This document shows, in pieces, positions 16,846-36,328 of a stretch of 64,000 bases of DNA; positions within the stretch are counted from its first letter, which is position 1; each line of letters begins with the position of its first letter. The position numbers were made by a program, and so were the translations under genes. The notes beneath the pieces were generated by a model that saw only the letters and a program-made list of their open reading frames with translations, was not told the DNA's origin and did not search any database. This stretch comes from Caulobacter sp. FWC2 (GTDB taxonomy: Bacteria > Pseudomonadota > Alphaproteobacteria > Caulobacterales > Caulobacteraceae), in the NCBI RefSeq assembly GCF_002742625.1, contig NZ_PEBF01000001.1:5146001-5210000 (forward strand), written 5' to 3'.

Positions 16846-18691
16846 GGCTGCGCCTCACATGGGCCAGCAGCGCGGTCAGCGCGCCGGGGGTCACGCCCTC
16901 GATACGAGCCGCCTGGCCCAGGGTCATGGGACGCACGCGGACCAGCTTCTCGCGGACCTCGTTGGAGAGACTGCCGATGTCGGCATAGTCGAGATCCGCA
17001 GGGAGCCGCAGGTCCTCGTCCTTGCGCAGCGACTCGGCGTCGGCGCGCTGACGGTCGAGATAGCCGGCATAGGCGGCCTCGATCTCGATCTGCTCGCGGA
17101 CGTCGGTGTTCCACGTGAAAACCTCGGGCCACACAGCGCCAAGATCATCCAGCGTCACGTCGGGATAGGCCAGCATGGCGAACAGGTCGCGGCGGACGCC
17201 ATCGCTGTTGACCTTGAACCCGGCCTTCACGGCCTCGTTCGGGGTCAGTGTCACAGAACGCGCAAAGGCGCGGGCCGCTTCCAGCCGCGCCTTCTTTTCG
17301 GCCCAGGCCAAAGCGCGGCGCTCGCCCACCACGCCCAGCGCGATCCCACGATCGGTCAGACGCTGGTCGGCGTTGTCGGCGCGCAGGGTGAGGCGGAACT
17401 CGGCCCGGCTGGTGAACATGCGATACGGCTCGGTGACGCCCCGGGTGACAAGGTCGTCAATCATCACGCCGATATAGGCCTCGTCCCTCGCGAAGACGGC
17501 GGGCTCCCTGCCCTTTTCGGCCAGCGCCGCGTTCAGCCCCGCCACCAGGCCCTGAGCGCCGGCCTCTTCATAACCGGTGGTGCCGTTGATCTGGCCAGCG
17601 AGGTAGAGACCCGGCAGGCGCTTGGTCTCCAGCGTGGCGTAAAGCTCGCGCGGATCGACATAGTCATATTCGATCGCATAGCCGTAGCGCTTGACCTCGA
17701 CGGCCTCCAGGCCTGGGATTGTGCGCAGGAACAGGAGTTGGGTCTCTTCCGAAACCGACGTGGAAATGCCGTTCGGATAGACCGTTGTGTCATCCAAGCC
17801 CTCCGGCTCCAGGAACACCTGGTGGCTGGTCTTGTCGGCGAAGCGGACGACCTTGTCCTCGATCGACGGGCAATAGCGTGGACCGATCCCCGTGGCGCGA
17901 CCGCCATAGACCAGAGACTCGCTCAGCCGGTCCGCGATGATCTGGTGGGTCTGCGCCGTGGTGAAGGTGATGCCACAGGCGATCTGGGGCGTGTCGATGC
18001 GGTCATTCAGGAACGAGAAAGGCACGGGCTCGTCATCGCCGGGCTGCATCTCCAGCCGGTCCCAAGCGATGGTCGCGCCATCCAAGCGCGCGGGCGTGCC
18101 GGTCTTCAGGCGGCCCATCTGGAAGCCAAGACCATAGAGCCGATCCGCCAGGCCGATCGCCGGCTCATCGCCGACACGGCCGGCGGGAATCCGGGTCTCG
18201 CCCAGGTGGATGACGCCCTTCAGGAAGGTGCCGGTCGTGAGGATTACACGTGGCGCCCGATACGACCGCCCTGCCCCGTCAATCGCGCCAGCGACCTTAC
18301 CGTCCTCGACGATCAGGTCCTCGGCGGCGGCGGCGATGATGTCGAGGTTTTTGGTGGCAGCCAGCTCAGCCTGCATGGCCTCGCGATAGAGCTCGCGGTC
18401 GATCTGGGCGCGAGGGCCGCGAACGGCCGGACCCTTAGAGCGGTTCAGCATCCGGAACTGGATGCCGCCCTTGTCGGCCATCCGGCCCATGACGCCGTCC
18501 AGAGCGTCGATCTCGCGCACCAGATGGCCCTTGCCCAGGCCACCAATGGCCGGGTTGCAGGACATCTCGCCGATGGTTTCCAGCTTGTGGGTCAGCAGCA
18601 AGGTGCGCGCGCCAGCGCGCGCAGACGCGGCCGCCGCCTCGCAGCCGGCGTGACCGCCGCCGATGACAATGACATCCCAGGTATCGGACAA
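16835..18691 (-). CDS. mnmG: tRNA uridine-34 carboxymethylaminomethyl enzyme MnmG (GidA)
   Basis: A 618-aa FAD enzyme that works with MnmE to install the cmnm5 group on wobble U34. The FAD-binding [15 protein letters not shown] is followed by the GidA signature [17 protein letters not shown] and [38 protein letters not shown] is the second signature. The start is TTG 18691, chosen because GAGG lies about 8 bases upstream and the protein begins [13 protein letters not shown] as in relatives. A longer frame to 18757 has only weak starts. A parS-like element at 17107-17122 lies inside this gene and encodes VFTWNT. Confidence 0.97.
17107..17122. other. parS-like ParB-binding site inside mnmG
   Basis: TGTTCCACGTGAAAAC compared with the parS 16-mer TGTTNCACGTGAAACA: 14 of 16 positions match, including the CACGTG core. 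It is inside the mnmG coding sequence, about 9.6 kb left of the putative origin. Probably a weaker parS site of the cluster. Confidence 0.6.
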
Positions 18692-18787: not shown

Positions 18788-18803
18788 CGTTTCACGTGAA
18801 ACA
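18788..18803. other. parS site (perfect 14-mer)
   Basis: Contains GTTTCACGTGAAAC exactly (18789-18802) in the mnmE-mnmG intergenic gap; 15 of 16 with the extended consensus. This is the canonical centromere sequence bound by ParB, encoded 3.4 kb to the left. Confidence 0.92.
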
Positions 18804-18845: not shown

Positions 18846-18861
18846 GGTTTCACGTGGAACA
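18846..18861. other. parS site (one core mismatch)
   Basis: GTTTCACGTGGAAC (18847-18860) differs from the canonical 14-mer at one position. It directly abuts the mnmE stop codon and is 58 bp from the perfect site at 18789, so the intergenic gap holds a pair of sites. Confidence 0.85.
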
Positions 18862-20202
18862 TCACTTGCCGATGCAGAAGGTCGAAAAGACGCGGCCGAG
18901 AACGTCCTCGGGGTCGACCCTTCCCGTGATCTTCTCAAGCGCCCGAGCGGCAAGGCGGACGTCTTCAGCGGCCAGTTCGACTTCCAGACCCACCTCTGAA
19001 AGGGCCCGAGCAAGATATCCCTGAGCCTCTCGCAAACGCTCCGCATGGCGCAGGCGAGTCGCCGCCGGAAACTCGGCGCCTGATAGGGCATCGGCGACGT
19101 GGCTGGAGAGCGCCTCGCGCATGTCGCTCATCGCCTCCACCGAATGGGCCGAGAGACGGAGGACCTTCAGCCCCTCTCCGGACCAAAGGGCCTCGGCTTG
19201 ATCCAGCGCAGAACCCTCCGCAATGTCGGCCTTATTCAAGACCAGCCAATCGCCAAGCCGAACCGCCTCTTCAAGCTTCACCGCATGTTTCACGTGAAAC
19301 CCATCGACCACCCAAAGCCTTAGGTCGGCTTCTTCAGCCCAGGCCCTCGCGCGGCGGACGCCTTCAGCCTCAATGGCGTCTGCTGTCTCGCGAAGGCCGG
19401 CTGTGTCGGCGACCAGGACCTTGTAGCCGGCGAGCACCAGCGGGACCTCGATGACGTCCCGGGTCGTACCCGGCGTGTCCGTCACGATCGCCGCCTCCCG
19501 CTCGACCAGGCCATTCAACAAGGTGCTCTTTCCCGCGTTCGGCGCGCCGACCAGGGCGATGCGGAAGCCATCGCGCACGCGCCGGCCCCTTTCCACGTCG
19601 GCCAGCGCCGCGTCGAGCTCGGCGCTCAAGGTTCGCAGGCCAGGGCGTGCGCGCTCGGCGACCTCTTCGGGCAGGTCCTCGTCGGGGAAGTCGACGGCCG
19701 CTTCCAGCATGGCCAGGGACTGGATCAACAGGTCGCGCCAGCGGTCATAACGCTGGCTGAGCGCCCCGCCGACCTGACCGAGCGCCTGCTTCCGCTGGGC
19801 CTCGGTCTCGGCGTCGATCAGGTCGGCGACACCTTCGGCCTGGGCCAGATCCAGCTTTCCGTTCTCGAAGGCCCGCCGCGTGAACTCGCCTGGCTCTGCC
19901 AGGCGCAGGCCCAGATCCGACAGCGCCGCGAGCAAGGCCTCCACGACAGCGCGGCCGCCGTGCACGTGAAACTCGGCGCTGTCCTCGCCGGTATAGCTGG
20001 CCGGCGCCTCGAAGCGCAGGACGAGCGCCTCATCGAGCTCCATCCCACCGTGGCGGAGGGTGCGCAGCGCCGCCGTCCGCGGCGTGGGCGCCCTCCCCAC
20101 CAGAGACTCGACCACGGACAAGGTCGCCGGGCCCGAGACCCGCACGACGGCCACAGCTGCGCGCCCCGCCGCGGTGGCGGGCGCGAAGATCGTATCCGTC
20201 AT
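18862..20202 (-). CDS. mnmE: tRNA modification GTPase MnmE (TrmE)
   Basis: A 446-aa G protein, partner of MnmG in wobble-uridine modification. It starts [25 protein letters not shown] and contains the folate-binding N-domain with FHVHGG. The G domain follows: GAPNAGKST (G1), DTPGTTRD (G2/DxxG region), ADTAGLRE (G3) and NKAD (G4). The invariant C-terminal C-x-G-K is seen as FCIGK at the very end. A perfect parS (19287-19300) is embedded between G3 and G4 and dictates the peptide FHVKH, which is not part of the usual G-domain. A four-base gap follows the small DUF6489 gene. Confidence 0.97.
19286..19301. other. parS site inside mnmE (perfect 14-mer)
   Basis: GTTTCACGTGAAAC at 19287-19300 is an exact parS core within the mnmE coding sequence. 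On the coding strand it is read as F-H-V-K-H. About 7.4 kb from the putative origin. Confidence 0.9.
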
Positions 20203-21273: not shown

Positions 21274-22238
21274 TGCTCGCGATCCAGGCCGTCCGCACCG
21301 GCGGCCCAGAGGTGCTGGAAGCTGTCGAGCTTCCGGTCCCCTCGCCTGCCGCCGGGCAGATCCTTGTGCGTCACCAGGCCGTCGGTCTGAACTATATCGA
21401 CACCTATCACCGCTCGGGCCTCTACCCGCTGAAGATGCCGGCGGTTATCGGGCTCGAGGCGGCGGGAACGGTCGAGGCGGTGGGCGATGGCGTCACGCGG
21501 TTCCACGTGGGCGACCGCGTCGCCTACAACGGGACCATGGGCGCCTATAGCGAAGCGTCGGCTGTCCCGGCCGAGCGGGCGGTGAAGGTCCCCGACGGCG
21601 TCAGCCTGGAGACCGCGGCCGCCGTCCTGCTCAAGGGCATGACCGCCGAGTTCCTGGTCCGCCGGTGTTTCCACGTGAAACACGGCGACCTCGTTCTGGT
21701 TCACGCGGCGGCCGGCGGCGTCGGCCAGATCCTGGTGCAGTGGTGCAAGGCCCTGGGCGCGACGGTGATCGCCACCGCCGGCGGCGAGGCCAAGCTCGCC
21801 CTCGCCCGCCAACTCGGCGCGGACCACGTGATCGACTACGGCCAAGAAGATGTCGCCGCTCGGGTCGCCGAGATCACCGGCGGCAAGGGCGTGGCCGTCG
21901 TCTATGACGGCGTCGGCAAGGACACCTGGGACGCCAGCTTCAAGAGCCTGGCCAAACGCGGGATGCTCGTGACCTTCGGCAACGCCTCGGGTCCCGCGCC
22001 CCCCTTCGCGCCGCTGGAGCTGTCGGGCAAGTCGCTGTTCGTGACCCGTCCCCGGCTGTTCGACTATATCGCCACGACCGAGGAACTGGATGAAAGCGCT
22101 CAGGCGCTGTTCGACATCATCGGTTCCGGCGCGGTGAAGATCGACATCGGCCAGACCTTCCCGCTGTCGGAAGCCAAGGCGGCGCACGAAGCCCTGGAGG
22201 GCCGCCGTACGACTGGCGCCACCCTGCTCATACCGTAG
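21273..22238 (+). CDS. NADPH:quinone oxidoreductase (zinc-independent MDR family)
   Basis: A 321-aa medium-chain dehydrogenase/reductase like E. coli QorA. It starts with the GroES-like domain (VGLNYIDTYHRSGLYPLKMPAVIGLEAAGTVEAVG). The NADPH-binding motif is HAAAGGVGQILVQ. No zinc-ligand cysteines are visible, as in quinone reductases. It is translationally coupled to the hydrolase. A parS-like site (21667-21682) lies inside it and is read as F-H-V-K-H just before the nucleotide-binding strand. Confidence 0.93.
   Translation: MLAIQAVRTGGPEVLEAVELPVPSPAAGQILVRHQAVGLNYIDTYHRSGLYPLKMPAVIGLEAAGTVEAVGDGVTRFHVGDRVAYNGTMGAYSEASAVPAERAVKVPDGVSLETAAAVLLKGMTAEFLVRRCFHVKHGDLVLVHAAAGGVGQILVQWCKALGATVIATAGGEAKLALARQLGADHVIDYGQEDVAARVAEITGGKGVAVVYDGVGKDTWDASFKSLAKRGMLVTFGNASGPAPPFAPLELSGKSLFVTRPRLFDYIATTEELDESAQALFDIIGSGAVKIDIGQTFPLSEAKAAHEALEGRRTTGATLLIP
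21667..21682. other. parS-like site inside the quinone oxidoreductase gene
   Basis: GTTTCCACGTGAAACA matches the parS 16-mer at 14 of 16, with the full right half and CACGTG core intact. It encodes F-H-V-K-H, like the site in mnmE. It is the rightmost parS candidate, about 5 kb from the putative origin. Confidence 0.7.
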
Positions 22239-24596: not shown

Positions 24597-25624
24597 GCCG
24601 AGGCCGCCTCTTTGCACGGACAGTTCGTTTCGCCACACCGCCAATCGCTACCCGGTATGACCCCGGTCTTGCCGAGCGCCTGGCGAACCATCCCGGCCAG
24701 GCCGGAGATGAACTCCGGCGCGACGCCTAGGGCCGGCACGCGGATGTAGGGAGCGACCCCGGCTTCCTGGGCCAGCTCGGCATATTCGTGGTCCAGTTCG
24801 ACCAGGGTCTCGACATGCTCGGAGACGAAGGCGATCGGGGTGACGATCAAGCCCTTCCCTTCCGCGCCGGCGCGGCGGATCTCGTCGTCGGTCGAGGGGC
24901 CGATCCACTTCAGCGGTCCCACCCGGCTCTGATAGCAGACGGTCCAGTCCAGCTCGGCCGGAAGTCTGGCCGCCACCGCCGCGGCCGTGGCCTCGATCTG
25001 CTTCTGGTAGGGGTCGCCGCCCAGGATGACCTTCTCCGGCAGACCGTGGGCCGAGAACAGCAGGCGCGTATTCGCCGGCGAACCCGCCTTTTCCCAGGTG
25101 TCTCGGATCAGGCGGGCGTGCGCGTCCACGAGCTTGGCTTCGTTCGGATAGCAGCAGATCGTCGTCTGACGACCGCCGCCCGTATAGGTTTTCGTCCAGG
25201 CCTTCAGCGAGGAGCCGGTCGTGGTCTCCGAATAGTGCGGATAGAGCGGCAGCAGCACGATCTCGTCCGGCGCGAAGGCCTTGACCTGCTTGGCGGTCTC
25301 GCCGGTCAACGGGTGCCAGTAGCGCATGGCGATGAAGCACTTGGCCTCCACGCCCGGCAGGCTCGCAGCCAGTTCGGCCTCCAGAGCCTTGGCCTGCTTT
25401 TCCGTTTCCGGCAGCAAGGGCGAACCGCCGCCCATGATCGCGTAGTTGGCCTTGGCCATCTTCTCGCGCGTCGTCGAGATCAGGGCCGCCAGCGGATAGC
25501 GGATCAGGGCCGGGGCGCCGATGATCGCCGGATCGCGAAACAGGTTGAACAGGAACGGCCGCACCGCGCGCGGACCATCCGGCCCGCCGAGATTGAACAG
25601 GACGACGGCAAGCTTCTTGGTCAT
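24593..25624 (-). CDS. hemH: Ferrochelatase HemH, probable [2Fe-2S] type
   Basis: A 343-aa enzyme inserting Fe2+ into protoporphyrin IX. VLFNLGGPDGPRAVRPFLFNLFRDP is the family start. LFSAHGLPEKVILGGDPYQ contains the catalytic His. PIAFVSEHVETLVELDHEY is the second signature. The C-terminus carries Cys at about residues 330, 335 and 337 (CGETNCPC), consistent with the [2Fe-2S] cluster reported for C. crescentus ferrochelatase. A fourth ligand could come from the ICCYPNEAK segment. It overlaps hemE upstream and hemJ downstream by ATGA. Confidence 0.95.
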   Translation of the reverse strand: MTKKLAVVLFNLGGPDGPRAVRPFLFNLFRDPAIIGAPALIRYPLAALISTTREKMAKANYAIMGGGSPLLPETEKQAKALEAELAASLPGVEAKCFIAMRYWHPLTGETAKQVKAFAPDEIVLLPLYPHYSETTTGSSLKAWTKTYTGGGRQTTICCYPNEAKLVDAHARLIRDTWEKAGSPANTRLLFSAHGLPEKVILGGDPYQKQIEATAAAVAARLPAELDWTVCYQSRVGPLKWIGPSTDDEIRRAGAEGKGLIVTPIAFVSEHVETLVELDHEYAELAQEAGVAPYIRVPALGVAPEFISGLAGMVRQALGKTGVIPGSDWRCGETNCPCKEAASA

Positions 25625-26664
25625 TGGCCCACCTTCTGGCCGGTCACCCGTTCCAGCACCAGCTCGACATTGGCGATCGGCGTGTCCGGCAGGATGCCAT
25701 GGCCCAGGTTGAAGATGTAGGGACCCTGGTTCCACTGCTCCAGCAACTGGTCGACGCGACGCAGCAGCGCATCGCCGCCGGCCCGCAGCAACAACGGATC
25801 CAGCGCCCCCTGGATGGTCTTGGTCTTCTGGATCGACTGGCCCAGCTTGGCCGAAGCCGAGGTGTCCAGCGCCACGCCCTGCACAGGAACCTTGGCCGCG
25901 TAGTCCTCGACCAGGGTCCCGGCGCCGCGCGGGAAGCCAATGATCGGAACGGTCACGCCCCGCGCCCGCAGACCTTCGATGATCCGGATATGCGGCTGGG
26001 TGACCAGACGATCGAACAACGGCTCGGACAGGCCCTCGGCCCAGCTCTCGAACAGCTTCAGGGCCTGGGCCCCGGCGTCGACCTGCATGGCCAGGTAATC
26101 AACCGTCGAGTCGACCAGCACCTGGATCAGGGCGTCGAGCAACTCGGGGTTCTGGTAGGCGTAGGTCCGCGCGCCGCTGCGATCGCTGGAGCCCTTCTCG
26201 ATCATGTAGGTCGCCACGGTCCAGGGCGCGCCGGCGAAGCCGATCAGGGCCTTGGACGGATCGAGCGCTGAGCGAACCCTCGTCAGCGTCTCCCCGACGA
26301 GCTTGAGGGCCTCGCCCGCAGTCCCGGCCCTTTCGGCCATGGACTCGATCGACGGCATGTCTCCCAGCTTCGGACCCTCGCCGGCCTCGAACCAGACCTT
26401 CTGGCCCAGAGCGCCCGGGATCAGCAGGATGTCGGCGAAGACGATCGAGGCGTCGTAGGGAAAACGGCGCATCGGCTGCAGGGTGACTTCGGCCGCCTTC
26501 TCCGGATCGAAGCAGAAGCTGATGAAGTCCGGAGCCGTGGCGCGAACGGCGCGATACTCGGGCAGATAGCGCCCCGCCTGGCGCATGAACCAGATCGGAG
26601 GGTTCGTGTGTTTCTCGCCGGACAGGGCGGAGAGAAATTTCGGGGTCGGAGCCTGAGACGTCAT
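25621..26664 (-). CDS. hemE: Uroporphyrinogen decarboxylase HemE
   Basis: A 347-aa TIM-barrel enzyme decarboxylating uroporphyrinogen III to coproporphyrinogen III. PPIWFMRQAGRYLPEYR is the N-terminal signature with substrate-binding Arg residues. IVFADILLIPGALG contains the catalytic Asp region, and GFAGAPWTVATYMIEKG and the C-terminal FNLGHGILPDTP are further family blocks. The start is ATG 26664. The gene points away from the putative chromosome origin, as hemE does beside Cori in C. crescentus, where its promoter lies within the origin. It heads the coupled hemE-hemH-hemJ operon. Confidence 0.97.
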   Translation of the reverse strand: MTSQAPTPKFLSALSGEKHTNPPIWFMRQAGRYLPEYRAVRATAPDFISFCFDPEKAAEVTLQPMRRFPYDASIVFADILLIPGALGQKVWFEAGEGPKLGDMPSIESMAERAGTAGEALKLVGETLTRVRSALDPSKALIGFAGAPWTVATYMIEKGSSDRSGARTYAYQNPELLDALIQVLVDSTVDYLAMQVDAGAQALKLFESWAEGLSEPLFDRLVTQPHIRIIEGLRARGVTVPIIGFPRGAGTLVEDYAAKVPVQGVALDTSASAKLGQSIQKTKTIQGALDPLLLRAGGDALLRRVDQLLEQWNQGPYIFNLGHGILPDTPIANVELVLERVTGQKVGQ

Positions 26665-26734
26665 GGCTCGGGTTAAAGCCCGGCGCGCGTCCGGGCTCAA
26701 GCCCGTAAGGCCCTTAAGACCTTCCTCTCATATC

Positions 26735-26749
26735 TTAATAAGAATTTAA
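26735..26749. promoter_or_regulatory. CtrA box 1 in the origin
   Basis: TTAA-TAAGAAT-TTAA, exact spacing of 7. It sits in a larger dyad ATCTTAA...TTAAGAT (26732-26752) within the most AT-rich part of the region, where duplex opening would be expected. It is about 70 bp upstream of hemE, so it may also control the hemE promoter. Confidence 0.8.
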
Positions 26750-26856
26750 GATTGAAAGAGGGGGTTGGAGGGCAACTGCACAGTGGGGAAAACCCCTGAC
26801 GGGCGAGTGACTCGCACAGCAGATTCCTCGTTACCCCCAGCCCTTCCCACATGGGG

Positions 26857-26871
26857 TTAAGGATCTGTTAA
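26857..26871. promoter_or_regulatory. CtrA box 2 in the origin
   Basis: TTAA-GGATCTG-TTAA, exact 7-base spacing. Followed closely by ATGTGGACAG, a weak DnaA-box-like sequence on the minus strand. Confidence 0.82.
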
Positions 26872-26905
26872 TCATGTGGACAGACCGGCAAGCCCCTTGA
26901 AGGCC

Positions 26906-26920
26906 TTAACAAAATCTTAA
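26906..26920. promoter_or_regulatory. CtrA box 3 in the origin
   Basis: TTAA-CAAAATC-TTAAC, exact spacing and the trailing C of the full CtrA consensus TTAA-N7-TTAAC. It lies 35 bp from box 2, allowing cooperative binding. Confidence 0.85.
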
Positions 26921-27111
26921 CGCGCGGAGGCGGACGAAAGTCCCTCAGCGAGACTCTGTCCCGAGCCTTGGACAGTCTGAATTCACCTATCGGGGGATGC
27001 GGGGCGAGCCTGGGGATGGTACGCGAGCAATGCGACCGTTGATCACAGCGGCGCCGTGTCACGACGGCTTGGAGGCCATTCGGCGCCCGGGCGTCCCCAG
27101 AGGCAGGCCAA

Positions 27112-28017
27112 TTGGTTAAACAACCGTTAACGGATGATCCACAGGAGACTCTGGCTCAGGGGGAAGCGGAGAGGCTGCCGCCGCGCTTCGCCACCTACTT
27201 CCATATCCACCTGGTGTCCGACTCCACCGGCGAGACCCTCAACGCCATGGCGCGCGCGGTCTGCGCCCGGTTTACCGACATCCTGCCCATCGAACATATC
27301 TACGCGCTAGTTCGTTCGACCCGGCAGCTGGATCGGGCGCTCGAGGAGATCGGCGGAGCGCCCGGGGTGGTGATGCACACCATCGTCGATCCCGGCCTGC
27401 GCGCGGCTCTGGAAGAAGGCTGTCGCAAGCGGGAAATGCCCTGCATCGCCGCGCTGGATCCGGTGATCAGCGCCATGTCGCGCTATCTGGGCGCGCGGAT
27501 CTCGACCCGGGTCGGCGCTCAGCATGCCCTGACCAACGACTATTTCGATCGCATCGAGGCGCTGGACTACGCCATCGCCCATGATGACGGCCAGGGCGGC
27601 CAGGACCTGACCCAGGCCGACGTGATCCTGGTCGGCGTGTCGCGGACCTCGAAGACCCCGACCTGCATCTATCTGGCCCACCGCGGCGTGCGGGCCGCCA
27701 ATGTGCCTCTGGTTCCCGGCCGGCCACCGCCGCAGGATCTGTTCGAGCTGAAGAACACCCTGATCGTCGGCCTGATCACCTCGCCCGATCGGCTGATCCA
27801 GATCCGCCGCAACCGCCTGCTCTCTCTCAAGGAGAACAGGGAGAGCGACTATGTCGATGGCGACGCCGTTCGCCAGGAGATCATCGCCGCCCGCCGCCTG
27901 TTCGAGCGGATGAACTGGCCGGTGATCGACATCACCCGCCGCTCGGTCGAGGAGACGGCGGCGGCGGTGATCAACCTGCTGTCGGGCGGCCGCGGCAAGG
28001 TCGAGGTCCTGGGATGA
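27112..28017 (+). CDS. ppsR: DUF299 kinase/pyrophosphorylase (PpsR-type)
   Basis: Up to 301 aa. It is a dual-function regulatory protein that phosphorylates and dephosphorylates a dikinase (pyruvate phosphate dikinase or PEP synthase) with ADP and Pi. YFHIHLVSDSTGETLNAMARA is the family signature, and VDVILVGVSRTSKTPTCIYLA-like sequence (ADVILVGVSRTSKTPT) is the P-loop. The first 23 residues are not conserved and come from a TTG start at 27112 overlapping a CtrA box and DnaA box. The true start may be a later non-ATG codon before YFHIHLVSD. It leads the rightward ppsR-maf-aroE-coaE run, matching the first genes of the C. crescentus chromosome as I recall them. Confidence 0.93.
   Translation: MVKQPLTDDPQETLAQGEAERLPPRFATYFHIHLVSDSTGETLNAMARAVCARFTDILPIEHIYALVRSTRQLDRALEEIGGAPGVVMHTIVDPGLRAALEEGCRKREMPCIAALDPVISAMSRYLGARISTRVGAQHALTNDYFDRIEALDYAIAHDDGQGGQDLTQADVILVGVSRTSKTPTCIYLAHRGVRAANVPLVPGRPPPQDLFELKNTLIVGLITSPDRLIQIRRNRLLSLKENRESDYVDGDAVRQEIIAARRLFERMNWPVIDITRRSVEETAAAVINLLSGGRGKVEVLG
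27116..27143. promoter_or_regulatory. CtrA box 4 and DnaA G-box at the ppsR edge of the origin
   Basis: TTAA-ACAACCG-TTAAC (27116-27130) is followed four bases later by TGATCCACA (27135-27143), the Caulobacter-type G-box. The repressor and initiator sites almost touch. Both lie inside the annotated start of ppsR, so either that start is too long or origin signals constrain the first codons. Confidence 0.85.
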
Positions 28018-28607
28018 CCCCTATAACCCTCGCGTCCAAGAGTTCGGCGCGTCAGATGATCCTGAAGAACGCCGGCGTCGCCTTCGAGGCGGTCAGTCCC
28101 GGCGTCGACGAGGACGCGGCCAAGGCCGGCCTGCTGGCGGAGGAGGTCACCCCGCGCGACATCGCCGACGCCCTGGCCGAGATGAAGGCGGTCAAGGTCT
28201 CGGCCAGGCGCCCGGGCCTGGTGATCGGCGCGGATCAGACGCTCGATCTGAAGGGCAAGCTGTTCGACAAGGCCGAGACCCTGGCCCAGGCGCGTGATCA
28301 TCTGCTGGAACTGCGCGGCCAGACCCACAAGCTTCACTCGGCCGTGGTCGTGGCGCGCGACGGCCAGCCGATCTGGCGGATCGTCGAGAGCGCCAAGCTG
28401 TCGGTGCGGCCGTTCAGCGAGGCCTGGCTCGACGCCTATATCGAGCGCCGGGGCGAGGCCCTGCTGTGGTCGGTCGGGTGCTACGAGCTGGAGAGCGAGG
28501 GCGTGCAACTGTTCGACGCCGTGGATGGCGACTATTTCACCATCCTGGGCCTGCCGCTGATCGGCCTGCTCGACTTCCTGCGTCTTCACGGAGCCCTTCC
28601 CGCATGA
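28014..28607 (+). CDS. maf: Maf-family nucleotide pyrophosphatase
   Basis: A 197-aa HAM1/Maf-fold protein. ITLASKSSARQMILKNAGV is the signature N-terminus. VIGADQTLDLKGKLFDKAETLAQARDHLLELRGQTHKLHSAVVV is the conserved core. The family hydrolyses non-canonical or modified nucleoside triphosphates and has been linked to septum formation. It overlaps ppsR by ATGA and aroE by 4 bases. The shortened motif ADQTL in place of the usual DQVxx is typical of the alphaproteobacterial branch. Confidence 0.92.
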   Translation: MTPITLASKSSARQMILKNAGVAFEAVSPGVDEDAAKAGLLAEEVTPRDIADALAEMKAVKVSARRPGLVIGADQTLDLKGKLFDKAETLAQARDHLLELRGQTHKLHSAVVVARDGQPIWRIVESAKLSVRPFSEAWLDAYIERRGEALLWSVGCYELESEGVQLFDAVDGDYFTILGLPLIGLLDFLRLHGALPA

Positions 28608-29461
28608 CCTGGACGATCTCGGGAGCCGCCATCGTCGGCGGCGTCTGCGGCGCGCCGATCAAGCATTCGATGAGCCCGCTGATCCACAATGCCTGGATCC
28701 AGGCGGCGGGGCTCGACGCGGCCTATGTTCCGTTCGCGCCCGGCGTGGACAATTTCGAGGCCTTCGTGAACGGCTACCGGGGCGGCGCGATCCGGGGGCT
28801 GAACGTCACCATCCCCTTCAAGGAACGCGCCCTCGCGGTCGCCGATTACGCCAGCGACCTCGCCAGCATGGCCGGCGCGGCGAACCTGCTGATCTTCGAG
28901 GCGGACGGCTCGATCCATGCCGATAATACCGACGGGCCGGGCCTGTTGGGCGCCATTGCAGAACAGGCGTCTGGCTTCGACGTCTCGGCCGCGCCGGTCG
29001 TGATCCTCGGCGCCGGCGGCGCGGCGCGCGGCGCGACCGCCGCCCTGCTTCTGGCGGGCGCGCCCGTGGTCCGGATCGTCAATCGCACCGTCGGGAGGGC
29101 TCAAGAGCTGGCCGACGCCTTCGGCGACAAGGTCGTCGCGGCCGGCGAGCCGGACCTTCCGGCCCTGCTGGCCGATGCGGGCCTCGTCATCAACGCAACC
29201 TCGCTGGGCCTGGGCGGCGGCGAAGGCCCTGCGGCGGATCTGGCCCTGACGCCGGAGACGGCGGTGATCATGGACATGGTCTACAAACCGCTGCGCACCG
29301 AATTTCTCCGCCGCGCCCAGGCGGCTGGTCGTCGCACCGTCGATGGCCTGGAGATGCTGCTGCGCCAGGCTGTGCCGACCTTCGAGCGGATGTATGGCGT
29401 GGCGCCGCCGGCCGAAGTGGACGCGCGCGGCCTGTTGCTGCGCCTTCTTGGAGAGGCCTGA
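28604..29461 (+). CDS. aroE: Shikimate dehydrogenase
   Basis: A 285-aa NADP-dependent enzyme reducing 3-dehydroshikimate to shikimate in aromatic amino-acid synthesis. [18 protein letters not shown] is the shikimate-binding N-terminus. [12 protein letters not shown] carries the catalytic Lys, and [14 protein letters not shown] the partner Asp. [17 protein letters not shown] binds the nucleotide, followed by IVNRT. The start is ATG 28604, overlapping the maf stop by ATGA. coaE follows after one base. Confidence 0.96.
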
Positions 29462-29462
29462 C

Positions 29463-30062
29463 ATGTTGATCCTGGGTCTCACCGGTTCCATCGGCATGGG
29501 CAAGTCAACGACTTCGACCCTGTTTCAGGCTGAGGGTGTGCCGGTGTACGACTCCGACGCCGCCGTCCATGCGCTCTATGCCAGCGGCGGCGCGGCGGTT
29601 GGGCCGGTCGAAGCGGCCTTCCCCGGCGTGGTCGTCAACGGCGCGATCGACCGGGCCAGGCTCAGCGCCCAGGTGGTCGGCGATCCGGAGGCCCTGGCCA
29701 AGCTGGAGACGATCGTTCACCCGCTGGTCGGCGCCCATCGGATCGGCTTCTTCGAGACCGCCCAGGCCGAGGGCCATGAGATCGTGGTGCTGGACATCCC
29801 GCTCCTGTTCGAGACCGGCGGCGAGAAGAAGGTCGACAAGGTGGTGGTGGTCTCGGCCCCGGCCGACGTCCAGCGCGCCCGCGTCCTGGCCCGACCCGAG
29901 ATGACGCCGGAAAAGTTCGAGGCGATCCTGGCCCGCCAGACGCCCGACGCCGAAAAGCGCGCCCGCGCCGACTTCGTCATCGACACCAGCCAGGGCGTCG
30001 AGCACGCCCACGCCCAGGTCCGCGACCTTCTGACTCTGTTGAGAACTCCCGGCTCCGCTTGA
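29463..30062 (+). CDS. coaE: Dephospho-CoA kinase
   Basis: A 199-aa P-loop kinase performing the last step of coenzyme A synthesis. Walker A is [12 protein letters not shown] at residues 4-15. [13 protein letters not shown] carries the catalytic Asp; [25 protein letters not shown] and [19 protein letters not shown] are the other family blocks. It is one base after the aroE stop and 31 bases before dnaQ, consistent with one operon ppsR-maf-aroE-coaE-dnaQ. Confidence 0.97.
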
Positions 30063-30093
30063 AGCCCATCACGAACGGCGGCATTGAAGGGTC

Positions 30094-30804
30094 ATGGCCC
30101 GGGAAATCATCCTCGACACCGAAACCACCGGCTTCGATCCGAAGACGGGCGACCGCCTGGTCGAAATCGGCTGCATCGAGGTCCTCGACTTCATGCCGAC
30201 CGGCCGCTCGTTCCATGAATATTGCGACCCGCTGCGCGACATGCCGGCCGAGGCCGAGAAGGTCCACGGCCTGTCGTCGGCGTTCCTGACCGGCAAGCCG
30301 AAGTTCCACGAGATCGCCGACAAGTTCATCGACTTCGTCGGCGACAGCGTCGTGGTCGCCCACAACGCCGCCTTCGACCGCTCGTTCGTCAATTTCGAGC
30401 TGGAGAAGTGCGGCCGCGCGCCAATCCACGAGGAGCGCTGGATCGACACCCTGGCCATGGCCAAGAAGCGCTTTCCGGGCATGTACAACTCGCTCGACGC
30501 GCTGTGTAAGCGGTTCAAGATCAGCCTCGACAGTCGCGACAAGCACGGGGCGCTGATCGACTCGCACCTGCTGGCCGAGGTCTATCTGGAACTGCAGGGC
30601 GGCAAGGAACGCGCCCTGGAGCTGACCCACGTCGAGGCCCTGTCGGTCTCGGCCGCGATCCAGGGGTCATACGGCGCCCGGCCCCGTCCGCTGGCGCCGC
30701 GCTCGACCGACGCAGAGCGCGAGGTCCACGCCGCCTGGATCCGCAAGAACCTCAAGGACTCGGCGCTCTGGATCAAGCAGGGCTTCGTGGCGGCCGAGGG
30801 CTGA
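30094..30804 (+). CDS. dnaQ: DNA polymerase III epsilon subunit (proofreading exonuclease)
   Basis: A 236-aa DEDDh 3'-5' exonuclease. REIILDTETTGFDPKTGDRLVEIG holds the ExoI Asp-Glu. AHNAAFDRSFVNFEL is ExoII, and KRFKISLDSRDKHGALIDSHLLAEVYLEL is ExoIII with the catalytic His and Asp. The C-terminal segment (about 175-236) should bind the alpha subunit. It is the last clear gene of the origin-proximal rightward block; a 320-bp non-coding span follows. Confidence 0.97.
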   Translation: MAREIILDTETTGFDPKTGDRLVEIGCIEVLDFMPTGRSFHEYCDPLRDMPAEAEKVHGLSSAFLTGKPKFHEIADKFIDFVGDSVVVAHNAAFDRSFVNFELEKCGRAPIHEERWIDTLAMAKKRFPGMYNSLDALCKRFKISLDSRDKHGALIDSHLLAEVYLELQGGKERALELTHVEALSVSAAIQGSYGARPRPLAPRSTDAEREVHAAWIRKNLKDSALWIKQGFVAAEG

Positions 30805-31124
30805 AGCCCGATCTCTTCTAACGCCCTAAGTGCCTCGGCTCGCTCGTGCAGGCGAGCGCCGGCCGGCTGCCTGTGGTCCTCAATCTCGCCGGGTGAGACG
30901 CGACCTCTGCATCTGAAGTCGATTACACAAGTAGGATCAGTCAAGATCAATAAATAACGAGGTTACGCCAATATCGGCAGGTCCTCGCAGGCATCTCTTC
31001 AGAGCAAACGGCTCCGATAGGTCATATTGTCGCGGATAGTGATGTATTAATCACGAATTCACCGGCAGAGACGATCCAATTCGCCCAACAATTCCAGTTT
31101 TCTCGCGAAACGGGGCGAACCTAT
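30805..31124. other. Non-coding span between dnaQ and the porin gene
   Basis: 320 bp, much more AT-rich in its right half than the neighbouring coding sequence. It presumably carries the porin promoter. I see an interrupted dyad GTGAT-N6-ATCAC at 31039-31054, and no clear Pho box, terminator or gene. It is the likely neighbourhood of a rearrangement junction (see findings). Confidence 0.5.
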
Positions 31125-32555
31125 ATGCGAAAAATCTTCTCACTGACCCTGCTCGCGGCCTCGATGATGGCCAGCGTCGCCGCCGCGCAGGATGCGCCCA
31201 AGACCGACGTCACGCTCGATGAGCTCAAGGCGCAGATCCTGGTCATGCAGCAACGGCTTCAAAGCCTTGAGGCCAAGGCCAGCGCGCCGCCGGTCGCCGC
31301 GCCGGCGCCAGCCAAAACCCCGGCCCCGGCCACCACTCAGATCAAGTGGGAGAACTCCCCGCGCTTCACGGACTCCAGCGGCGCCACATTCAAGCTGCGG
31401 GGCCGCCTGTCGATCGACGGCGTCAACGTCAATGTCGATCGAAAGACCACCGCCTCCTACAAGTCCCGCCAGTTCAGGGCTCGGCAGCTGTTCCTTGGCG
31501 CCGAGGGTCAGGTCGGCGCGTGGGCCTATCGCATCGAGGGCGGCGCGGCGAACGGCTCCAGCTGGGGCTGGGACGACGCGGTCATCGAATACAAGACCAA
31601 GAGCGGCATGCTCTTGACCCTGGGCAACCAGAAGGTTGGCGGTCTGGAGAGCCTGACCTCGATCAAGACCATCACCTTCATGGAGCGTGGCCCGTTCGGC
31701 GACCTGACCGACACCGGCTTCGTCCTGGCGGCCCAGGCCACCAAGATCGGCGCCAACTGGTCGCTGCGCGGCGCTCTGCAAGGCGACTCGATCAACAAGG
31801 CCGACGTTTCGGCCGGCGCCTATGACGCCAACAACGCCAAGGAACGCTCGGGCTTCATGGTCCGTGGCACCTGGGCGCCGATCATGACGGCGACCGACAC
31901 CGTCCACGTGGGCGCCTCGGCGCGCTATCGCAGCACGGGCGGCGAGACGGGCTTCACCTATTCGGCCGCGGCCAACACCGCCTATCGTCCTCAGACCTCA
32001 GCGGGCGGCGTGCTGCTGTCCAGCGGCGCCGTGGGTAAGAGCGATACGACCGTGGGCGTCGAAGGCGCCTGGACGCACAAGGCCGTCTCGCTGCAGGGCG
32101 AAGTCGCGCAGATCAAGGTCAACCGCGTCACGACGGCCCAGAGCGCGGCCAATGGCGGCAAAGACTTCAACATCGTCACCGGCTACGCCCTGGCCAGCTG
32201 GTTCCCCACCGGCGAGACCCGCCCGTACAACCCCGGCGGCCAGTTTGGTCGCATCAAGGTTCTGCATCCGATCGATAAGGGCGGCATGGGCGCCTATGAA
32301 CTGGCGGCGCGCTACGACTATGCCGATCTCAGCAAGATGAGCCCGAACAGCGTGGCCACGCTGGCCAGCCAGACAGGCCTGGCGACGGCCGGGACCTACA
32401 AGGGCCTCACCGTCGGCGTGAACTGGTATCCCTACAGCAACGTCCGCCTGATGGCGAACCTCACGAAGGCGAAGATCAACAATCGCCTGATCGGCGCTGT
32501 TCAGAACGACGCCAATGTGACTGTTCTCCAAGCCCGCATGCAGATCGAATTCTAA
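31125..32555 (+). CDS. Phosphate-selective porin O/P-type outer-membrane protein
   Basis: A 476-aa exported beta-barrel. The signal peptide is MRKIFSLTLLAASMMASVAAAQ. A short coiled coil (TLDELKAQILVMQQRLQSLEAK, about residues 30-52) and a Pro/Ala linker follow. A porin domain starts at about 75 (FKLRGRLSIDGVNVNVD) and ends in the typical C-terminal aromatic strand QARMQIEF. The coiled-coil-plus-barrel layout and the LFLGAEGQVG...YRIEGG motif match OprO/OprP-like porins (Porin_O_P). Substrate preference for phosphate is a family label only. The gene stands alone, 42 bp before the chemoreceptor gene. Confidence 0.85.
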   Translation: MRKIFSLTLLAASMMASVAAAQDAPKTDVTLDELKAQILVMQQRLQSLEAKASAPPVAAPAPAKTPAPATTQIKWENSPRFTDSSGATFKLRGRLSIDGVNVNVDRKTTASYKSRQFRARQLFLGAEGQVGAWAYRIEGGAANGSSWGWDDAVIEYKTKSGMLLTLGNQKVGGLESLTSIKTITFMERGPFGDLTDTGFVLAAQATKIGANWSLRGALQGDSINKADVSAGAYDANNAKERSGFMVRGTWAPIMTATDTVHVGASARYRSTGGETGFTYSAAANTAYRPQTSAGGVLLSSGAVGKSDTTVGVEGAWTHKAVSLQGEVAQIKVNRVTTAQSAANGGKDFNIVTGYALASWFPTGETRPYNPGGQFGRIKVLHPIDKGGMGAYELAARYDYADLSKMSPNSVATLASQTGLATAGTYKGLTVGVNWYPYSNVRLMANLTKAKINNRLIGAVQNDANVTVLQARMQIEF

Positions 32556-32597
32556 TTAGCTGCAAAACAAATCTTCCCGTCGGTCAGGAGTCGCCGG

Positions 32598-34418
32598 ATG
32601 TCTTGCGTGAAGAACATCTCGATCCGTAAAAAAATCATGCTGTCGTTCGGCCTGCTGCTGGCTGCGGCCGTGGCGATGATCGTCAGCGTCTTCCTGCAGC
32701 TCACGAGCATGCAGGCGGCCATCCGACTGAACGATGAGAGCAAGTTGATCATCGAACAGACCCATACTGCCGAGAAGGGGGCCCTGCGCGTGAACTCCCA
32801 GATGCGCGGGATCCTGCTGACGGGCAGCGCCAAGTACATGAAGTCCTACGACGAGGGCCTGAAGGGCTTCGACGACGCGATCGCCAAGCTCGAGACCCTT
32901 AACCTGACAGATCAGGAAGCGGCTGACTTTAAGAAGGTGAAGGCTGACTGGCGGACCTGGATGGACACCTATGGCAAGCCGCTGACCCTCGCGGGCCTCG
33001 ACCCCGCTCGCCAAGAAGAGGGTCGTCAGACCCTCATCATGGCCGGCGACAAGGCCCGGGTGACCCATATCATCAAGCGCATGGGCGAGATCCGCTCGGC
33101 CGAGCAGGCCCGGATGGCCGTGCGTGAAGCCGCCCAACACAAGGCGATCTTCTCGTCGGTCGCCATGCTGGTCGGCGGGGGCGTTGGCCTGCTGGTCATT
33201 GCTCTGGGCATGGGCTGGCAGCTGACGATCCTGGTCGCCGCACCCGTCGGCCGCATGACCGAGTCGATGATGCGCCTGGCCGATGGTGACTTCGAGGTGG
33301 AGACGCCCGACCGCGATCGGGCCGACGAGGTCGGTTCGCTGTCGCGCGCTTTCGAAACCTTCAAGGAAAATAGCCTCAAGGCCATCCGTCTTGAGCGCGA
33401 GACCAGCGCCATGCGCGAGGCGGGCGAGGCCGAGCGCGCCAAGGCCGAAGTCCAGAAGGCCCGCGAGGCCGCCGAGGACCGGGCGGTGATCGAGGCCCTT
33501 GGGCGGGGGCTGCATGCCCTGTCGACGGGCGACCTGACCCATCGCATCACCGATCACATGGCGCCGAAGTCCGAGCAGTTGAAGGAGGACTTCAACGCCT
33601 CCATCGCCAAGCTGGAGATGGTCATCACGGGGGTTCGCCATGCCGTCATGACCATCAGCGGCGGCTCCCGCGAAATCTGCGTGGCCTCCGACGACCTGGC
33701 CCGCCGCACCGAGCAACAGGCCGCCAGCCTGGAAGAGACCGCCGCGGCGCTTGAAGAGATCACCGCCACCGTCAACAAGACGGCGGAAGGCGCGGGTCAC
33801 GCCCGCACCGCGGTCAGCGGCGCCAAGACCGACGCCGAGAACGGCGGTCAGATCGCCGGGCGCGCCGTTGTCGCCATGAACGAGATCGAGCAGAGCTCGC
33901 GCCAGATCACCCAGATCATCGGGGTGATCGACGAGATCGCCTTCCAGACCAATCTTCTGGCCCTGAACGCCGGCGTTGAGGCGGCGCGGGCCGGTGAGGC
34001 CGGTCGCGGCTTCGCGGTGGTCGCGCAGGAGGTTCGGGCCCTAGCCCAGCGCTCAGCTGACGCGGCCAAGGAGATCAAGTCCCTGATCAACCTGTCGACC
34101 AACCAGGTCACCGTCGGCGTCGACCTCGTTGGACAAACCGGCAAGGCGCTGGAGAGCATCGTCGCTCAGGTTCTCGATGTCAGCACCATCGTGCGCGAGA
34201 TCGCCGCCTCGGCTCAGGAACAGGCTAGCGGGCTCCAAGAGGTTAATGTCGCCGTCAACATGATGGACCAGGTGACGCAGCAGAACGCGGCCATGGTCGA
34301 ACAGTCCACCGCCGCCAGTCACGGACTGGCGACCGAGGCCGACGAGTTGGCGACTCTGATGAGCCAGTTCAAGGTCAGCGAGATGATGAACCGCAGCGTC
34401 CAGGCTCGGGCGGCTTAG
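32598..34418 (+). CDS. Methyl-accepting chemotaxis protein
   Basis: A 606-aa transmembrane chemoreceptor. TM1 is at about residues 11-34 and TM2 at about 190-215. Between them lies a roughly 155-residue helical periplasmic sensor (four-helix-bundle type, with HTAEKGALRVNSQMRGILLTG). A HAMP region follows (VGRMTESMMRLADGDFEVETPDRDRADEVGSLSRAFETF). The signalling hairpin tip is IDEIAFQTNLLALNAGVEAARAGE....VAQEVRALAQRS. No C-terminal NWETF-like CheR-docking pentapeptide is present. No other che gene is nearby, so it is an orphan receptor. GGAG lies upstream of the start. Confidence 0.95.
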   Translation: MSCVKNISIRKKIMLSFGLLLAAAVAMIVSVFLQLTSMQAAIRLNDESKLIIEQTHTAEKGALRVNSQMRGILLTGSAKYMKSYDEGLKGFDDAIAKLETLNLTDQEAADFKKVKADWRTWMDTYGKPLTLAGLDPARQEEGRQTLIMAGDKARVTHIIKRMGEIRSAEQARMAVREAAQHKAIFSSVAMLVGGGVGLLVIALGMGWQLTILVAAPVGRMTESMMRLADGDFEVETPDRDRADEVGSLSRAFETFKENSLKAIRLERETSAMREAGEAERAKAEVQKAREAAEDRAVIEALGRGLHALSTGDLTHRITDHMAPKSEQLKEDFNASIAKLEMVITGVRHAVMTISGGSREICVASDDLARRTEQQAASLEETAAALEEITATVNKTAEGAGHARTAVSGAKTDAENGGQIAGRAVVAMNEIEQSSRQITQIIGVIDEIAFQTNLLALNAGVEAARAGEAGRGFAVVAQEVRALAQRSADAAKEIKSLINLSTNQVTVGVDLVGQTGKALESIVAQVLDVSTIVREIAASAQEQASGLQEVNVAVNMMDQVTQQNAAMVEQSTAASHGLATEADELATLMSQFKVSEMMNRSVQARAA

Positions 34419-34427
34419 AGCGATACG

Positions 34428-35234
34428 CTAGAGCTTCAAGTCCGCCGTTACCGGGGCGTGGTCGCTGGGACGTTCCCATTCCCGGACGGTGTCGTGGACG
34501 CGCGAGGAGACCTTGCCGTCCACGATCGCCGCGTCGCGCAGGCCGGGGCTCGCCAGGATATGGTCCAGGCGCAGGCCGCGGTTGGATTTACGGAAGTCGG
34601 CGGCGCGATAGCTCCACCAGGAAAACAGCTTTTCCGGCTCCGGCGTCGCCAGGCGCGGCAGGTCCAGCAGATTCATCGACTTCATCATCGCGTCGAAGGC
34701 CTCGAGCTCGGCCGGCGTGTGGCTGACGACCTTCAGCATCTGGCGGTGACTCCAGACGTCGTTTTCGCCCGGCGCGATATTGAGGTCGCCGGTGACGATC
34801 AGCGGGGCCTTGGGGTCGCGCTTCTTCAGGGCGGCGGTCAGGGTCTCGTAGAAGTCGAGCTTGTGGTCGAACTTCGGATTGCCGATGCGGTCGGGCGTGT
34901 CGCCGCCCGCCGGGATGTAGAAGTTCTGGATGTCGACCCCGGCCACCTTGACCGCGACGCAGCGCGCGTGGCCCTCGCGGCAGTTCATCAGGGTCGGGAC
35001 ATCCTCGAACGGCAGGCGCGAGGCGATGGCCACGCCGTGCCAGCCCTTCTGGCCGGCGATCTTCAGGTGCTTCAGGCCCATGGCCTCGAAGGCCTCGCGC
35101 GGGAACTCGCCCTCCTGGCACTTGATCTCCTGCATGCACAGGACATCCGGGGCCTGCTCGTCGACGAAGCGGGCGGCCTGTTCGGCGCGGAGGCGGACGG
35201 AATTGACGTTCCAGGTGGCGATACGGAGGCGCAT
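34428..35234 (-). CDS. xth: Exodeoxyribonuclease III
   Basis: A 268-aa EEP-fold AP endonuclease/3' exonuclease. RIATWNVNSVRLR and CMQEIKCQEGEFP give the metal-binding Asn and Glu. VTGDLNIAPGENDVW is the Asp/Asn block, LRLDHILASPGLRD follows, and SDHAPVTADL is the terminal Asp-His pair. It acts in base-excision repair of abasic sites and blocked 3' ends. It is convergent with the chemoreceptor gene (9 bp apart). Its 5' side lies just beyond two terminators (35267-35356), so it must have its own promoter or rely on readthrough. Confidence 0.95.
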   Translation of the reverse strand: MRLRIATWNVNSVRLRAEQAARFVDEQAPDVLCMQEIKCQEGEFPREAFEAMGLKHLKIAGQKGWHGVAIASRLPFEDVPTLMNCREGHARCVAVKVAGVDIQNFYIPAGGDTPDRIGNPKFDHKLDFYETLTAALKKRDPKAPLIVTGDLNIAPGENDVWSHRQMLKVVSHTPAELEAFDAMMKSMNLLDLPRLATPEPEKLFSWWSYRAADFRKSNRGLRLDHILASPGLRDAAIVDGKVSSRVHDTVREWERPSDHAPVTADLKL

Positions 35235-35266
35235 GGCTTGCCTCTATCGCGGTTTAACGAGCCCGG

Positions 35267-35293
35267 AAAGAAAAACGCCCCAACGCAGGGGCG
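35267..35293 (-). terminator. Second copy of a duplicated terminator
   Basis: On the minus strand a CGCCCC/GGGGCG stem with loop TGCGTT is followed by TTTTTCTTT. The 27-bp block is repeated at 35321-35347, so two terminators stand in tandem upstream of xth. Confidence 0.7.
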
Positions 35294-35320
35294 CCAGCCG
35301 GCCACCGGCCGGCATCCTTA

Positions 35321-35356
35321 AAGAAAAACGCCCCAACGCAGGGGCGTTGGGGCGAA
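35321..35356 (-). terminator. Strong intrinsic terminator of the 25-codon transcript
   Basis: On the minus strand: stem CGCCCCAACG / CGTTGGGGCG with a short loop, followed by TTTTTCTTT. It starts 4 bases after the stop codon of the small open frame at 35360-35437 and is the closest terminator for it and for lolA readthrough. Confidence 0.85.
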
Positions 35357-35359
35357 AGT

Positions 35360-35437
35360 CTAGTCTCTCATGCCGCCGCCGGGAGGGGATAGGATCCGGC
35401 ACGGTTTGCGAAGAGCGGGTCGGTCGCTCAGCGCCAT
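35360..35437 (-). CDS. Possible leaderless 25-aa small protein (or sRNA)
   Basis: A 25-codon frame starting MALSDRPALRKPCRIL and ending GGGMRD, then TAG. Immediately upstream on the same strand are TTGACT and TATTTA hexamers (35473-35468 and 35449-35444), 18 bases apart. The predicted transcription start falls on or next to the A of the ATG, so the message would be leaderless. An intrinsic terminator follows 4 bases after the stop. The peptide is Arg/Pro/Gly-rich, with no membrane segment and no repeated amino acid that would suggest classical attenuation. A non-coding RNA of about 115 nt from the same promoter is equally possible. Confidence 0.4.
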   Translation of the reverse strand: MALSDRPALRKPCRILSPPGGGMRD

Positions 35438-35443
35438 GCGTGT

Positions 35444-35473
35444 TAAATATGCCACTTCGAAACTTTAAGTCAA
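35444..35473 (-). promoter_or_regulatory. Sigma-70-type promoter for the small transcript
   Basis: On the minus strand TTGACT (35473-35468), an 18-base spacer, then TATTTA (35449-35444). Shifting the -10 to ATATTT gives a 17-base spacer. It is one of the two clearest housekeeping promoters in the window, between lolA and xth. Confidence 0.6.
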
Positions 35474-35550
35474 GCCCGCAAGCGGTTGATTCTTGCATGT
35501 TGTCGTAATGTCACATTCAGGGCGCGCGAGCGTCCTGAACAAGAAAGGCT

Positions 35551-36189
35551 CTATTTGCCGACCTTGCGGCGGGGATCCGTCAAGACGAAGAGCTTGGGAT
35601 CCAGGTCGGAGGTCTCAGCGAAATCGATCAGGCGCACCCGGATCTGGCCGCCCTTGATGTCCGTGACCGTCCAGCCCATCAGGCCGACGGGCGAATTGGA
35701 GAAGTCCATCGAGATGCGGCCCAGCGCCTGGCGCTTGGCGTCCTGGGCCACGATGGTGAAGCCGTCGGCCAGCGGCCGGACGTCGGTGATGGTCACGCCG
35801 CGATCCAGGCGGACCTCGCGCGCCAGCAGCAGGTTCAGCGGCGTCTTGCTGAGCGGATAGCTCTCATAGGTCTTCAGCCGGCTGTCGAAGATGTTGACGT
35901 TATTACCGTTGCTGACGACCAGAAGGCCCGCCGGCGGATCGTAGGCGAACCGCGCCTTGCCCGGGCGCTGCATGTAGAAGGCGCCTTGCGTCTGGGTCCC
36001 GCGCGCGTCGGTCTGCACGAAGCGGCCCTTGGCCGAGCCCAGGCCCTGGATATAGGCGGTGGCCTTGTCCAGCAGGGCCTTCTGCTCGGCGGTCAGGGCG
36101 GCCGGGACGGGCTTGGCGTCTTGCGCCAGCACCGGAGAAGCGATGGCGGCGGCCAGGCCGGCCGCCAGAAGAATACGGCGAGTGGTCAT
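35551..36189 (-). CDS. lolA: Outer-membrane lipoprotein carrier protein LolA family
   Basis: A 212-aa periplasmic protein. The signal peptide is MTTRRILLAAGLAAAIASPVLAQ. The body has AYIQGLGSAKGRFVQTDARGTQTQGAFYMQRPGKARFAYDPP, the LolA-type half-barrel that shuttles lipoproteins to the outer membrane. Relatives in alphaproteobacteria follow ftsK, as here: ftsK lies upstream on the same strand. About 266 bp with an inverted dispersed repeat separates the two, so they may be separate transcripts. Confidence 0.9.
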   Translation of the reverse strand: MTTRRILLAAGLAAAIASPVLAQDAKPVPAALTAEQKALLDKATAYIQGLGSAKGRFVQTDARGTQTQGAFYMQRPGKARFAYDPPAGLLVVSNGNNVNIFDSRLKTYESYPLSKTPLNLLLAREVRLDRGVTITDVRPLADGFTIVAQDAKRQALGRISMDFSNSPVGLMGWTVTDIKGGQIRVRLIDFAETSDLDPKLFVLTDPRRKVGK

Positions 36190-36328
36190 GCGATCTCCTT
36201 AGCCGCAACCTTGGCCTGCGCGAAGGCCGCCGCAAGGCCATTTTCCGGCGCTCCGATGAAGCGCCGTTCAGGTTGGGATGCTGGGAACGCGTCCAAACGG
36301 TCAAGGTTTCCCCTCATCCCGCTCTCTC

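Follow-up and report, generated by a model that had tools for sequence, protein, structure and literature searches.

The region between hemE and ppsR is almost certainly Cori, the origin of chromosome replication, in a close relative of C. vibrioides within Caulobacter. It was analyzed within a window of 64,000 bases (5,146,001-5,210,000 of a 5,245,821-base contig), to which all coordinates refer. The evidence for an origin at this locus comprises the sites themselves, their clustering and conservation, the gene context, linkage to parS and the sampled GC skew; binding by CtrA and DnaA, exclusion of DnaA, unwinding, and transcription of the non-coding RNA CcnA are inferred from C. crescentus. 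By itself the locus is a textbook Cori of little discovery value, in which the origin plan of C. crescentus has been retained in a near relative. The part worth following is instead a clade of relatives in which the absence of exact CtrA boxes was unexpected.

Architecture of the hemE-ppsR region

The features of the region are listed below, with a strand given where one applies. The CtrA, DnaA G-box and W-box motifs used are consistent with published papers, and parS, IHF and GGGNAGGG sites were searched with consensus patterns.

14449-15483 and 15402-16205, minus strand: frames of the parB and parA genes beside the parS cluster, named by eye
17107-17122, 18788-18803, 18846-18861, 19286-19301 and 21667-21682: parS-like cluster, at most two mismatches to the consensus
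25621-26664, minus strand: hemE (uroporphyrinogen decarboxylase), left Cori boundary; NCBIfam TIGR01464 equivalog, 392.9 bits (cut-off 302.95)
26672-26700, minus strand: putative hemE promoter, TTGAGC (26695-26700), 17 bp, TTTAAC (26672-26677)
26714-26728: degenerate remnant of CtrA site a, TTAAGACCTTCCTCT, three mismatches
26735-26749: CtrA box 1 (site b), exact TTAA-N7-TTAA, within the AT-rich dyad
26784-26789, minus strand: W-box core TCCCCA, exact match
26809, 26822, 26952 and 27147: GANTC sites, from a sequence scan
26857-26871: CtrA box 2 (site c), exact TTAA-N7-TTAA
26906-26920: CtrA box 3 (site d), exact TTAA-N7-TTAA
about 26911-27092, minus strand: candidate homologue of CcnA (CCNA_R0094, 182 nt), placed by homology via its offset from the ppsR start
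27011-27016, minus strand: W-box core TCCCCA, exact match
27036-27055: invariant run CCGTTGATCACAGCGGCGCC, the longest in the vibrioides clade (15-sequence alignment), inside the candidate CcnA homologue
27094-27099, plus strand: W-box core TCCCCA, exact match
27112-28017, plus strand: ppsR (PEP synthase/PPDK regulator, DUF299), right Cori boundary; NCBIfam NF003742, 337.1 bits (cut-off 225)
27116-27130: CtrA box 4 (site e), exact TTAA-N7-TTAA, ppsR codons 2-7
27135-27143, plus strand: DnaA G-box TGATCCACA, ppsR codons 8-11, four bases past box 4

The first-pass annotation had placed four exact CtrA boxes in a 447-bp gap, followed after four bases by a G-box, and had reported TCCCCA-type W-boxes, an AT-rich dyad and GANTC sites. 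Pattern scans recovered the boxes (starting at 26735, 26857, 26906 and 27116), the G-box at its distance from the last of them, three exact W-box cores, four GANTC positions and, at box 1, the dyad, which consists of this box and its flanks and includes the 40-bp AT maximum of 0.75 (from 26714). The gap itself runs from 26665 to 27111, between the hemE ATG at 26664 and the ppsR TTG at 27112. A stop at 27040 is followed by no ATG, GTG or TTG before that TTG, and because this is the first in-frame ppsR start, only boxes 1-3 are strictly intergenic; box 4 lies inside ppsR.

Clustering of this kind is not expected by chance. Exact TTAA-N7-TTAA occurs at 18 distinct sites in the genome (5,511,152 bases in two contigs), four of which fall within 396 bp here, and the reversed control pattern occurs at 13 sites in the same genome. 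When the interval 26665-27150 was simulated with a first-order Markov model, the mean was 0.003 CtrA sites, against four observed; 63 of 20,000 runs contained one site and none contained two or more. The best match to the IHF consensus has one mismatch and lies at 26907 over box 3. Within the window, neither Rfam at gathering thresholds nor ARAGORN gave a match, and none came from a plasmid collection.

By analogy with C. crescentus, DnaA would bind a moderate G-box and weak W-boxes and open the AT-rich segment around box 1, and CtrA, when phosphorylated and bound to boxes b-e, would keep DnaA off in swarmer cells. Box e, at a distance of four bases, is rigidly coupled to the G-box and, by homology, may also drive leftward transcription of CcnA. 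On the other side of the gap, the TTGAGC-17-TTTAAC pair ends 7 nt before the hemE ATG, and its plus-strand cores CTCAAG and TTAA are invariant or nearly so in a 26-sequence alignment in which the edge bases vary. This suggests that the hemE mRNA may be nearly leaderless and start within Cori.

The experimentally mapped origin of C. crescentus is bounded by hemE and COG1806 and contains five CtrA sites as well as an AT-rich region of 40 bp (PMC1914354). The present region has the same boundaries, hemE and DUF299 (ppsR), with sites b-e at matching intervals, an AT-rich segment, three W-boxes, a G-box beside site e and a parS cluster on the hemE side. Relative to the ppsR start, the boxes begin at -377, -255, -206 and +4, as compared with -376, -254, -206 and +4 in C. 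vibrioides DSM 9893 (L003), so that the comparison of spacing which the first-pass annotation had proposed gives near box-for-box agreement. A 60-row tree built from HemE and PpsR puts the window in a 13-row clade with C. vibrioides (SH-aLRT 100). The correspondence is not complete. Three of the four W-type sites of the L003 type strain are matched here; the fourth, next to box c, reads TCCACA rather than TCCCCA, which counts against the assignment. Site a, with three mismatches here, has one mismatch in 8 of the 16 vibrioides-clade loci that reach its slot, L003 included. Two G-boxes are reported for C. crescentus Cori, and the finding of only one exact G-box here is a further point against the assignment, though the same scan found only one in L003; no other lies within one mismatch of TGATCCACA from -460 to +50 of the ppsR start. 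The predicted origins of Rickettsia and Wolbachia share with Cori the hemE boundary, CtrA and DnaA motifs, and a box number that varies between relatives, but they differ in box layout, and those of Wolbachia have other boundary genes (PMC1914354).

Gene context, parS linkage and chromosome polarity

Further left of hemE lie rho and mnmE and, beyond them, mnmG, rsmG, parA and parB, the last four named by eye. Of six parS-like matches in the genome, five form the cluster listed above, at a distance of 5.4-10 kb to the left of where ppsR starts; a control search with the reversed pattern gave one match. Similarly, five or more parS sites are reported close to ori in C. crescentus, grouped on its left arm some 8 kb from the origin (PMC5815017).

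Genome skew was taken from 35 sampled stretches of the sequence. It is mostly positive at 0.1-2.15 Mb, mostly negative at 2.35-5.16 Mb, and returns to positive values over the right half of the window. Exceptions are values near zero at 0.23, 4.98, 5.06 and 5.21 Mb, slightly positive values at 2.56 and 4.605 Mb, a clearly positive one at 5.10 Mb, slightly negative ones at 5.24 Mb and at 1-20 kb, and, between the arms, a negative value at 2.22 Mb and a positive one at 2.29 Mb. A skew inversion had been proposed as a check on the origin, and the sampled skew does switch sign in the window; however, it is weak and noisy, and the cumulative minimum of the window lies at 32578, 5.5 kb right of Cori, which counts against the assignment. 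The polarity of GGGNAGGG mostly agrees with the skew, with one flip at 2.35-2.42 Mb and a second near the window. Also counting against the assignment, left-arm GGGNAGGG polarity (28594-46954) persists to 46954, 20 kb right of Cori, where it perhaps reflects a recent inversion or transposition.

On the left arm, the dnaA gene (G000:C1:5112503-5112985) is separated from Cori by 60 kb, whereas in C. crescentus it is a short distance from the origin; this too counts against the assignment. A dnaQ-like frame (30094-30804, named by eye) remains 3 kb right of Cori. The displacement of dnaA while this frame has stayed suggests a rearrangement near dnaA, other than the inversion that distinguishes K31 from NA1000, which has a breakpoint beside dnaA near the origin (PMC4221894). 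The polarity data are consistent with an origin no more than a few tens of kilobases away, the signal perhaps having been blurred by rearrangement, as dnaA is displaced here and an inversion near the origin separates those two strains. Taken with the gene context, the match to C. vibrioides and conservation in relatives, the sampled skew supports the identification as Cori made in the first-pass annotation.

A candidate CcnA homologue and the conservation of the sites

In C. crescentus, CcnA is a 182-nt non-coding RNA transcribed within Cori (PMC4287350, PMC8959179). Transcription of its gene, CCNA_R0094, begins at position 182 and uses the minus strand (PMC5988900); one CtrA box lies at -23 relative to this start and a second at the gene end (PMC8959179). 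By homology, box 4 would be the CtrA promoter element of a CcnA homologue here, with box 3 at the gene end. In genome G096 the ppsR start is at contig base 202 and box e at 206-220; we infer that NA1000 is numbered alike, in which case the transcription start would be 23 bases from box e, matching PMC8959179, and the same offset from the ppsR start would place CcnA here at about 27092 to 26911. The candidate, which runs away from ppsR and which the first-pass annotation missed, would by homology correspond to CCNA_R0094 in its location and strand and in having box e as promoter box and box d at the 3' end. A plus-strand CcnA starting from box 3 fits the spacing equally well and was ruled out by the minus strand given in PMC5988900.

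The stretch 26911-27092 is unlikely to owe its conservation mainly to a structured RNA (CcnA) rather than to DnaA and CtrA binding, even though the longest invariant run in it (27036-27055) matches none of the boxes searched. This run of 20 bp, CCGTTGATCACAGCGGCGCC, includes TGATCACA, a G-box minus one C. A fold with a CCCC loop A was predicted for CcnA by mFold (PMC8959179), and CCCC runs, some of them within W-box cores, are found in the candidate region. However, RNAalifold on 44 sequences gave a single 6-pair stem, formed by two nearly invariant W-boxes, and the fold of the 182 nt of the window was no better than that of shuffled sequences (z 0.88; 165 of 200 shuffles at least as stable). 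GGCGCC/GGCGCC arms that, by eye, appeared compensated from one clade to another were rejected as covariation, as RNAalifold kept the W-box/W-box stem only and the fold did not exceed the shuffles.

Conservation was assessed in 77 sequences: 62 named loci from a scan of the GTDB collection, 14 further loci and the window. Box counts refer to 45 of these rows (the vibrioides, AP07/Root655, hibisci-endophyticus, L021-like and C. segnis FS groups). The other 32 comprise Phenylobacterium, Brevundimonas, deeper lineages, one Paracoccaceae record and seven rows classed as same-genus in the genome set (L034, L129, L131-L135), whose PpsR match starts only at residue 11-24 and in which between one and three exact boxes are present, spaced differently. 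None of ten Brevundimonas-type loci has an exact CtrA box. Box e is exact in 37 of the 45 loci; among the 44 that reach further left, exact b is present in 32, d in 25 and c, which is confined to the vibrioides clade, in 16. The ATCCACA core follows box e in all 45 loci (exact TGATCCACA in 36), and the W-boxes at -101 (27011-27016) and -21 (27094-27099) are present in 44 and 45, respectively. At the third W-box (26784-26789), GGGGA of the complement is invariant in 26 aligned sequences; because the preceding base varies, the full core is inexact in some clades. The ten AP07/Root655-type origins (L013-L020, L056, L114) all share with the window exact boxes b and e, the ATCCACA core and two W-boxes, but lack box c and have one mismatch in box d.

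The coupled module TTAA-N7-TTAA-N6-ATCCACA is found, once each, in 29 of 39 genomes of the genus and 30 of 199 of the family; its reversed control is found in none of the 199. All 29 modules in the genus lie at the ppsR start or at most about 140 bases upstream of the ppsR match. The ten genus genomes without it are G056, G064, G071, G086, G142, G146 and G158, of the hibisci-endophyticus clade, and G111, G154 and G182. Among 160 family genomes outside the genus the one instance is G081 (L138, G081:C88:3500-6300), where an exact CtrA-box/ATCCACA module lies directly upstream of ppsR; from this case, the coupling may be older than the genus Caulobacter or may have evolved on two occasions. An order-level search found the module in 15 of 299 Caulobacterales genomes, 14 of them in this genus. 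The remaining one, in G377 (L137), was taken as chance, with no hemE or ppsR read by eye among open frames of at least 120 aa.

The overlap of box 4 and the G-box with the presumed ppsR start, pointed out in the first-pass annotation, is real and conserved among Caulobacter loci: a start codon (GTG in 37 of 45, TTG in 8, as here) and nearly the same 11 codons are found in all 45. That these bases are conserved as coding sequence for the PpsR N-terminus, and not as DNA sites, is nonetheless very improbable. The NF003742 profile matches the ppsR product from residue 28 onward only. Third-position pair differences are 0.165 in codons 2-11, as compared with 0.297 over the 20 codons that begin at FATYFHIH and 0.374 over the 70 after them (available in 37 of 45 rows), and the third positions of TTA, GAT (codon 9), CCA and CAG are invariant; at positions 1-2 the corresponding values are 0.066, 0.038 and 0.121. 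Such low third-position variation is as expected if the DNA itself were constrained. In L129, L132 and L135, moreover, the box and ATCCACA lie 15-16 bases further upstream of the extrapolated start. Least credible of all is a regulatory hub in which the CtrA boxes serve mainly promoters (hemE, CcnA, ppsR) with origin function elsewhere: box e would indeed be a CcnA promoter element by homology and a conserved promoter-like pair faces hemE, but the DnaA core and two W-boxes are more widely kept than any CtrA box, skew and parS put the origin here, and the homologous region is the experimentally mapped origin of C. crescentus (PMC1914354).

A clade without exact CtrA boxes at Cori

Eight loci, from a plant-associated group, are without an exact CtrA box at Cori, taken as 400 bp upstream of ppsR (L022-L026, L028, L029, L035). 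They belong to C. hibisci, strain 602-2, C. radicis, C. zeae, strain D5, C. endophyticus 774 and BI, and T5M6, which carries the label C. vibrioides. In all eight, box e has one mismatch, the places of b, c and d are empty, and a one-mismatch CtrA site is present at -175. At this position an exact site is found in L112, another Caulobacter locus. The clade retains the DnaA core, two W-boxes and the CtrA protein. Box c, being found only in the vibrioides clade, is not counted among the losses, which are b, d and e. The eight form a clade (SH-aLRT 99) nested in a 33-row Caulobacter set (99), the other 25 rows of which keep at least one exact box, and this nesting makes loss the simpler reading; the nearest neighbours of the clade are poorly resolved in the tree. 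The clade departs from the rule, given in a review, that four of the five Cori CtrA sites of C. crescentus are conserved among freshwater Caulobacter (PMC4468827).

In seven genomes of the clade CtrA has 231 residues and differs from that of the window at 7-8 of them, as compared with 2-6 in six other genomes. Exact CtrA sites number 7-11 genome-wide in the same seven clade genomes; seven genomes used for comparison have 12-16, a count to which their origin boxes contribute. With the reversed control pattern the two sets give 2-8 and 3-10, respectively, and G071, with 8 of each, has no excess. Because the excess over background is small, these counts say little on the rest of the regulon. CtrA also binds imperfect sites, so the absence of exact boxes does not establish that binding has been lost. 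The sequences point to a possible loss or re-siting of CtrA control in this clade, and we hold tentatively, at somewhat less than even confidence, that control of the replication origin by CtrA has been dismantled or moved. In the titles and abstract openings of the open-access papers that literature searches returned, we found no report of CtrA-box loss at Cori in this plant-associated clade.

When all five Cori CtrA sites of C. crescentus were weakened, the cell cycle was only slightly affected under constant laboratory conditions, but the sites became essential once cells were exposed to nutrients and antibiotics at the same time; the reviewers regard such stress as the reason that the CtrA sites are retained (PMC4468827). 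A clade that is naturally without exact boxes would let this stress explanation be tested. If CtrA control has indeed been lost or moved, CcnA, with box e as its promoter, would also be weakened or uncoupled from CtrA in these bacteria, and the clade would be a natural experiment on the purpose of CtrA at Cori.
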